Assembly: GCF_001434835.1 (NCBI RefSeq) | Contig: NZ_AZDV01000015.1 | Span: forward strand, 1 to 64,000 | Reading direction: 5' to 3' | DNA from: Levilactobacillus acidifarinae DSM 19394 = JCM 15949 | GTDB lineage: Bacteria; Bacillota; Bacilli; Lactobacillales; Lactobacillaceae | DNA: 64,000 nucleotides | Shown: one piece after another, positions 19,419-20,372 of the stretch | Layout: each line of letters starts with the position of its first letter | Position numbering within the stretch: the first letter of the stretch is position 1 | Position numbers and translations under genes: made by a program | The notes under the pieces: model-generated | Told to the model about the DNA's origin: nothing | The model's input: only the letters and a program-made list of their open reading frames with translations | The model's database searches: none

Positions 19419-20372
19419 TTGCTTAAACAAACAAAATATCAAAAAGTTGTCTTAGTCGGTGACGGTTCTGTTGGTTCGTCGTACGCTTTGCTCATGATGC
19501 AACAACCAGTCATGGATGAATTGGTGATTGTCGACATCGCAAAGGACCACAGCGAGGGCGACGCCATTGATTTGGAAGACACCCAACTCTGGGGGAAGCC
19601 GAAGTGGGTTCACGCCGGTACCTACGCCGACGCCAAGGACGCCGACCTGGTCGTCATCACGGCTGGTGTGCCCCGGAAGCCCGGTGAATCACGGTTGGAC
19701 CTGGTTAACAAGAACTTAAATATTCTGAAATCGATCGTCGGCCCCGTCGTCGACAGTGGGTTTAACGGCATCTTCTTAGTGGCCGCTAACCCCGTTGATA
19801 TCTTAACGGCCGCCACGCAAAAGCTGTCCGGTTTCCCAACGAACCGGGTCTTTGGAACCGGGACGTCGTTGGATACGGTACGGTTACGCGTGGCTTTAGG
19901 GAAACAATTGAACCTGGCGCCCCAAACGTTGAATGTGAACGTAATCGGTGAACACGGAGATACCCAGTTTGCTGCTTACTCGCACGCCATGGTTGGGGAC
20001 CAAAAGTTACTCGACGTCGCCCAAGCTAAGGGTGTTTCGTTAGCCGATTTACAGGCGACGGAAGCCGGTGCCCGTAAAAAGGGTGGCCAAATCATCGGCT
20101 TGAAGGGCGCAACCTTCTACGGTGTGGCGACCTGCTTAGCACGTATCACGCGGGCCATTCTAGGTAATGAGGACACGGTCTTACCCGTCGGCGCCTACCT
20201 AGACGGCGAATACGGCGTGAAGGGTCTATACTTAGGCACGCCAGCGTTGATCAACGCCCAAGGGGTTGCGCGGGTCTTACCGCTTGACCTGACGGCGGAA
20301 GAACGGGGCAAGATGCTCGATTCTGCTAAGGCGATGAAGAAGGTTCTCGACGACGCCATTGCCGTCAACTAA
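19419..20372 (+). CDS. L-lactate dehydrogenase family enzyme, predicted malate-active
   Basis: NAD-dependent 2-hydroxyacid dehydrogenase of 317 residues with the overall lactobacillar L-lactate dehydrogenase sequence. It has the nucleotide-binding [10 protein letters not shown] near residue 14, catalytic His179 in GEHGD, and [13 protein letters not shown]. The substrate-specificity loop reads [16 protein letters not shown]. Residue 86 is Arg, where lactate dehydrogenases have Gln (Gln102 in standard numbering), and VPRKPG is the malate dehydrogenase form. In Bacillus lactate dehydrogenase the Gln-to-Arg change is known to switch preference to oxaloacetate. The product may therefore be malate dehydrogenase, the step missing from the nearby citrate-to-succinate genes. 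The TTG start has GAAAGGG about 10 bases upstream. The family is certain; the substrate is inferred. Confidence 0.88.

Follow-up and report, generated by a model that had tools for sequence, protein, structure and literature searches.

A predicted malate dehydrogenase derived from within the lactobacillar L-lactate dehydrogenase family and its probable role in citrate-to-succinate metabolism

In Levilactobacillus acidifarinae DSM 19394, a gene built on the scaffold of the lactobacillar L-lactate dehydrogenases (LDHs) probably encodes an NADH-dependent malate dehydrogenase (MDH) that evolved within the LDH family and participates in the conversion of citrate to succinate, a reading to which, judging from sequence comparisons and gene context, we assign a probability of roughly 0.85. 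The gene lies in a stretch of 64,000 nucleotides (the window), contig 15 of an assembly totalling 2.92 Mb. A previous reading of this DNA from the sequence alone had proposed that a natural LDH-to-MDH conversion serves succinate formation; the proposal is supported by the nesting of the gene's relatives among LDHs, by two glycines at positions 236 and 237 and by neighbouring citrate and succinate genes, the enzyme itself being predicted. The enzymes that carry Arg at specificity position 102, where LDHs carry Gln, form a widespread clade, which is a larger finding than a single odd gene. The gene and the positions that define it are as follows.

19419..20372, + strand: dehydrogenase on an LDH scaffold, with Arg-102; predicted to act as a malate dehydrogenase
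19674..19676, + strand: codon CGG for residue 86, the Arg at specificity position 102
20082..20087, + strand: codons GGT GGC for residues 222-223 (Gly-236 and Gly-237), which are Ala-Tyr in LDHs

The open reading frame starts with TTG and encodes 317 residues. In a phmmer alignment with the L. pentosus LDH 1ez4 (E 6.7e-122), the specificity loop is free of gaps and residue 86 stands opposite the specificity Gln of AGAPQKPGESR, which confirms the earlier assignment of the CGG codon to position 102. The protein shows 59.9% identity with the ordinary LDH of its own genome and up to 62.5% with other lactobacillar Gln-102 LDHs, and there is little doubt, given some 60% identity to solved LDHs, that it adopts an LDH-type fold. 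Arg-102 is also present in two close relatives, one of 98% identity from Levilactobacillus zymae DSM 19395, the nearest named relative (L007), and one of 85% (L008), as well as in the wider clade, and is thus no chance change. The lactobacillar LDH scaffold recognized by the sequence-only reading is borne out both by the 1ez4 alignment and by the L-lactate dehydrogenase models TIGR01771 (356.8 bits, cut-off 303.55) and PRK00066 (405.9 bits, cut-off 339). All malate dehydrogenase models listed score the protein below their own cut-offs, including TIGR01763 (MalDH type 3; 194.1 bits, cut-off 351.85), which gives it 194 bits vs 244 for the genome's ordinary LDH, and the MDH models thus rank it below that enzyme; these scores count against an MDH.

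That the enzyme has kept the cellular function of its database name, L-lactate dehydrogenase, would agree with the TIGR01771 score and with a record of L. fermentum DR9 in which an Arg-102 gene bears this label. Such a reading is very improbable, since the gene neighbourhood is unlike that of ldh, a Gln-102 LDH is present in the genome, and Arg-102 reduces pyruvate activity more than 8000-fold in a model LDH (PMC4109310, in the portion available). The same source, quoted in part, attributes to Wilks et al. (1988) the observation that Gln102Arg alone turns the LDH of Bacillus stearothermophilus into an MDH. The lactobacillar gene shares with that enzyme the LDH scaffold with Arg-102 and the predicted switch to oxaloacetate; however, the Bacillus enzyme is a laboratory mutant, whereas the lactobacillar gene is a natural, separate paralogue with Gly-236/237 and, usually, citrate/succinate neighbours. 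Identity as an L-2-hydroxyisocaproate dehydrogenase (HicDH), a type that according to an extract of PMC4109310 has neither Gln nor Arg at 102 and carries loop insertions, was rejected on account of Arg-102 and the absence of an insertion.

A profile search of the whole genome detected two PF00056 genes above the cut-off, the Arg-102 gene and, on contig 3, an ordinary ldh, whose product has the Gln-102 loop AGAPQKPGETR and which adjoins the peptidyl-tRNA hydrolase gene pth. The sequence-only reading had raised the question of a second, normal ldh, and because the genome holds this one the Arg-102 gene should be dispensable for lactate formation. Its claim that no other MDH is at hand, initially made for the window, extends to the genome: there is no third PF00056 gene above the cut-off (four weak matches lie below it) and no Mqo, and a PF02615 gene considered as an alternative MDH, of an unrelated malate/lactate dehydrogenase family, was identified as the ureidoglycolate dehydrogenase AllD, located beside an (S)-ureidoglycine aminohydrolase gene. 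The locus L117 (contig 9, 48120-49109) marks an allantoin-type gene set that comprises the ureidoglycolate dehydrogenase, the ureidoglycine aminohydrolase and an amidohydrolase-like ORF, named by eye. An ATP-type PEP carboxykinase is represented in the genome by one partial match (26.1 vs a cut-off of 26.5 bits, over 86 of 465 positions), and is unsupported as a source of oxaloacetate because this match is partial and below the cut-off.

The resemblance to MDHs extends beyond position 102. Among the 69 proteins that were aligned for phylogenetic analysis (41 Arg-102, 22 Gln-102 and 6 canonical MDH rows), position 236 is Gly in 41/41 Arg-102 proteins, Ala in 22/22 Gln-102 proteins and Gly in 6/6 MDHs, while position 237, like 236 numbered by counting back from Thr-246, is Gly in 36 of the 41 Arg-102 proteins (Ser in three, Ala in two), Tyr in 21/22 Gln-102 proteins and Gly in 5/6 MDHs. 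The catalytic residues Arg-109, Asp-168, Arg-171 and His-195, which together with Arg-102 are shared with the canonical MDHs, are kept in all 41. However, Thr-246 is retained in 41/41 Arg-102 proteins, including that of the window, vs Ala in 6/6 MDHs. Position 250 is Val in 36 of them, the window protein among these, and Ile in five, as in LDHs, vs Pro in 6/6 MDHs. Both positions speak against a pocket of wholly MDH-like type. Mixed specificity is therefore possible, as the LDH-type Thr-246 and Val-250 are retained. The Bacillus Gln102Arg enzyme should also keep Thr-246, since it is a single mutant.

These features bear on the possibility of a broad 2-oxo-acid reductase, a general electron sink that would accept oxaloacetate as well as pyruvate, 2-oxoglutarate or branched 2-oxo acids, which is unlikely and yet has several points in its favour. 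Gly at 236/237 has reportedly been used to broaden an engineered LDH. In addition, Thr-246 is described, in the sections available of PMC9486893, as unfavourable for oxaloacetate, and some intermediate-group MDHs that contain it use both oxaloacetate and pyruvate; reduction of 2-oxoglutarate is reported for L. sanfranciscensis in a passage of PMC3231932. Against such breadth, the gene neighbourhood points to oxaloacetate, and the single Gln102Arg mutant from Bacillus is highly oxaloacetate-selective according to an extract of PMC4109310.

The direction in which the MDH-like traits were acquired was addressed through a maximum likelihood tree of the 69 proteins, from which the columns of the loop and of part of helix alpha-G had been removed so that the trait itself could not build the tree. 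Rows were thinned by identity (88, 80 and 75%) from 164, and L201, L202 and L160, removed by the filtering, were put back by hand. Forty of the 41 Arg-102 proteins form one clade (100/99) inside the lactobacillar Gln-102 LDHs, while the six canonical MDHs constitute a separate clade (100/100). Because the Arg-102 clade is nested in Gln-102 LDHs with the trait columns removed, it is best read as an LDH that acquired MDH features, not as an LDH-like MDH. A canonical MDH that merely resembles an LDH, or that was acquired from outside, would account for the Arg-102 and Gly-236/237 common to both groups, but is scarcely credible given this nesting and the distinct clade of the true MDHs. The Arg-102 enzymes also differ from the canonical type 3 MDHs in scoring below the TIGR01763 cut-off, in Thr-246 and Val-250 (not Ala and Pro) and in the loop, which reads PRKPGE vs ARKPGM, with two exceptions described below. 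From the lactobacillar L-LDHs (L. pentosus 1ez4 and the genome's own enzyme), with which they share about 60% identity, the scaffold and the passing of LDH models, they differ at position 102 (Gln in the latter), at 236 and 237 (Ala and Tyr) and in genomic setting, the own ldh lying by pth.

The gene environment in the window provides the metabolic setting for the predicted enzyme:

20389..20416, + strand: terminator-like hairpin with a T run, 3' of the Arg-102 gene (consensus scan, which gave 4 terminator-like sites in the region vs 1.9 expected)
22166-23911: pyruvate oxidase (pox)
25309..26706, + strand: class II fumarase-type protein (TIGR00979, the best model, 593 bits, below the curated cut-off of 665)
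27408..28802, + strand: flavocytochrome c / fumarate-reductase-type flavoprotein (TIGR01813, above cut-off)
28897..30315, + strand: DASS sodium-coupled anion carrier (TIGR00785, above cut-off)
31172..31483, + strand: CitD
31468..32400, + strand: CitE
32369..33928, + strand: CitF
35864..37021, - strand: CitG (match spans ORF residues 112-379)
36715..37278, - strand: CitX
37290..38345, - strand: CitC, citrate lyase ligase
38699..39853, - strand: malic-enzyme family (278 bits, below the long model's cut-off)
40008..40952, + strand: DeoR-like regulator (102 bits, below cut-off)
42365-45055: aconitase

The citrate lyase of the earlier inventory is thus present (CitD, E, F, C, X and G), as are a fumarase-type protein, a fumarate-reductase-type flavoprotein and, as the carrier, a member of the DASS type; the inventory had left out the malic-enzyme-family gene, the aconitase and the pyruvate oxidase. 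The putative pathway could be envisaged as follows. Duplication of an ldh gene would have been followed by Gln102Arg, and Ala236Gly and Tyr237Gly would have loosened helix alpha-G, with Arg-109, Asp-168, Arg-171 and His-195 performing their usual chemistry. Citrate lyase would release oxaloacetate, which the Arg-102 enzyme would reduce to malate with NADH, and fumarase and the flavin fumarate reductase would take malate on to succinate, so that citrate would serve to take up electrons, pyruvate being left to the normal LDH. The scheme is built on the observed residues, descent and gene neighbourhood and on the absence of a third PF00056 gene from the genome; it predicts the substrate, the direction, the co-regulation and the flux. 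The oxaloacetate route proposed in the sequence-only reading is supported, although that reading had overlooked a possible second exit, namely the malic-enzyme-family gene, whose product may divert oxaloacetate and malate to pyruvate.

The Arg-102 gene is set apart from the fumarase gene by the remnant of a regulator, by pox and by an ORF that was judged RibF-like by eye; given these intervening genes and the terminator-like site of the Arg-102 gene, co-transcription with fumarase is at most conjectural. The DeoR-like regulator, a homologue of which adjoins citrate genes at many related loci, has a presumed role only. The regulator between the Arg-102 gene and pox is of the LysR family (20857-21764, + strand) and is interrupted by an in-frame stop around 21078-21080, downstream of which the frame goes on as a 223-aa ORF; the L. 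zymae relative (L007) reads through there.

The association with citrate and succinate genes is recurrent. At least one such gene (fumarase, fumarate reductase, DASS carrier, CitC/D/E/F/G/X or malic enzyme) is located within 8 kb at 53/63 Arg-102 loci, which are all 64 Arg-102 genes minus that of the window, vs 0/32 loci of named lactobacillar Gln-102 LDH genes (Fisher p 7e-17, a value that is too strong because the rows are related, with contig ends cutting the flanks at some loci in both sets). The neighbours at the 63 loci are the DASS carrier (41), citC (40), citD (39), citE (39), citF (38), fumarase (30), malic enzyme (30), fumarate reductase (24), citX (8) and citG (7), in the recurring order fum-frd-(Arg-102 gene)-DASS-regulator-mae-citCDEF. 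In L. fermentum DR9, whose gene table is incomplete, the annotated order is fumarate hydratase, flavocytochrome c, L-lactate dehydrogenase, DASS symporter, citC, citD, citE and citG, and the "L-lactate dehydrogenase", flanked by flavocytochrome c and the DASS symporter, is an Arg-102 protein.

The remaining 10/63 loci, several of them beside unrelated genes in genus g6, are devoid of citrate/succinate genes over the same 8 kb, and this counts against the proposed role. Together with the malic-enzyme-family gene of the window and with L. reuteri JCM 1112, which has an MDH by BLAST without using citrate (PMC6821008, accessible in part), it would favour an MDH whose main flow is another, either oxidation of malate to oxaloacetate or the balance between oxaloacetate and aspartate. 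The same partial source reports that this strain turns malate and fumarate into succinate. An MDH with such a different main flow is quite unlikely, given the citrate/succinate genes at 53/63 loci and an MDH equilibrium that favours malate. The g6 subgroup without these neighbours (L147, L151, L154, L155, L165, L168 and L169) has Ala-Gly-(Ala/Ser/Gly) in helix alpha-G, vs (Lys/Arg)-Gly-Gly, and in L151, L154, L155 and L169, for which neighbours were listed, the Arg-102 gene adjoins a conserved ORF containing TIAGHDSDGSAGMPADLHAFF and what looks by eye like an arginyl-tRNA synthetase gene.

Fumarase was also compared across genomes with and without the loop pattern. A fumarase-type gene (E <= 7e-151) is present in 64/64 Arg-102 genomes vs 48/64 genomes of the same genera that lack the pattern (Fisher p 1e-5, a value made too strong by kinship), the matches in all 128 genomes being below the model's curated cut-off and the 64 pattern-negative genomes being hand-picked down the list, non-randomly, with none from genus g24. 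In this comparison G059, with an aspartase-like match alone, was scored as lacking fumarase, and the gene of G165 is a partial match. Among the 128 genomes the Arg-102 gene is never seen without fumarase, while fumarase without the Arg-102 gene is common; 10 of the 12 pattern-negative genomes examined from the window's own genus have it, so that fumarase does not require the Arg-102 gene. In one Arg-102 genome (G372, contig C118, 18972-20246), the fumarase-type gene has three in-frame TAA codons and is perhaps a pseudogene or an assembly fault.

The sequence-only reading concerned a single genome, but the conversion is not confined to it: the DNA pattern for AG[VI]PRKPGE occurs in 64/397 Lactobacillaceae genomes and 10/40 genera, and the clade spans nine genera in the tree. 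In the window's own genus, 4/25 genomes have the pattern, which counts against its necessity for a fumarase route. The figure of 64 is a lower bound, since the pattern missed two genomes (G341 and G384) in which Arg-102 is found within a canonical MDH loop, AG[VM]ARKPGMTR, on an LDH scaffold; both proteins (L250 and L251) belong to the Arg-102 clade and both genes adjoin fumarase and fumarate reductase genes. These two were the sole hits when canonical MDHs were sought among the 397 genomes through their loop, and were rejected as such; the pattern is exact, and MDHs with another loop could escape it. In a class-wide draw, canonical MDHs are found above cut-off in 54/61 genomes.

Outside the Lactobacillaceae, an order-wide search of 198 genomes (26 of them Lactobacillaceae by the table) yielded a looser Arg-102 pattern in 1/172 genomes, G473, and this match was taken as chance, since it falls outside the three PF00056 genes of G473 and is not contained in any ATG-started ORF of 100 aa or more that carries the loop. 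The Arg-102 gene is the sole PF00056 gene in 3 of the 39 Arg-102 genomes examined (G254, G331 and G392). G331 matches the L. jensenii locus L041 over a 1000-base piece; L. jensenii makes D-lactate. Among the plasmid matches listed (30 of 125), three records were read, of which H1 is an Arg-102 protein and H2 and H4 are ordinary Gln-102 LDHs.

To our knowledge, the LDH-to-MDH direction has been known only as the textbook point mutation. The opposite change, from MDH to LDH, took place at least four times in the superfamily (PMC4109310 and PMC9486893, in the parts available), and the apicomplexan, Cryptosporidium and trichomonad LDHs, which share with the present case the superfamily and a substrate switch, moved in this opposite way with other residues at 102 or a loop insertion (PMC4109310, same portion). 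If the present reading is true, a natural conversion with companion changes and many living descendants would make the path testable step by step, and would represent the natural counterpart of the textbook mutation. MDH activity itself was already expected on physiological grounds: extracts of PMC7555314 and PMC4895336 describe conversion of citrate to succinate in L. plantarum with an MDH step, and PMC4604094, as far as it is accessible, annotates L. plantarum 80 with an mdh and reports the MDH gene of L. fermentum 222 as missing, with fumC and frdC present. The Arg-102 gene, known from another strain of that species (DR9), may fill this gap. Were the enzyme an MDH, "L-lactate dehydrogenase" would be a misnomer, and metabolic models that count the gene as an LDH would need correction. 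Among the literature matches listed, in which subscription journals are mostly uncovered, no paper was found that presents an LDH-derived clade as the lactobacillar MDH.

The conversion could have occurred more than once. The small genome G254, of the Ligilactobacillus-like genus g22, encodes a protein with Arg-102, Gly-236 and Gly-237 and no other PF00056 protein, and the gene adjoins pth and an mfd-like gene (mfd named by eye). In the tree, a branch of zero length separates another g22 protein, L258, from that of Ligilactobacillus apodemi (L030). When 23 other g22 genomes were searched, an ortholog was found in 17, at 56-61% identity, all 17 with Gln-102 and Ala-Tyr and 16 with pth in the fetched stretch; of the remaining genomes, five encode a more remote Gln-102 enzyme and the last yielded a fragment. 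In the five (L270-L274), which lack pth in the fetched stretch, the sole match is a divergent LDH with Gln-102, the loop AGINQKPGQSR and 46-47% identity to the query. Free trees set the G254 protein (L146) apart from the main Arg-102 clade on a long branch; a single origin of all Arg-102 genes is seen in 0% of 200 bootstrap trees with either 69 or 83 rows, and constraining the trees to it gives AU p values of 0.045 (69 rows) and 0.139 (83 rows), an equivocal outcome. Locus and tree together suggest a second origin at G254. That LDHs became MDHs at least twice in the Lactobacillaceae by Gln102Arg, Ala236Gly and Tyr237Gly, once in a duplicated gene that nowadays mostly adjoins citrate-to-succinate genes and once in place at the ldh-pth locus of G254, stands at about even odds; alternatively, the native gene of G254 may have been replaced or converted by a paralogue.
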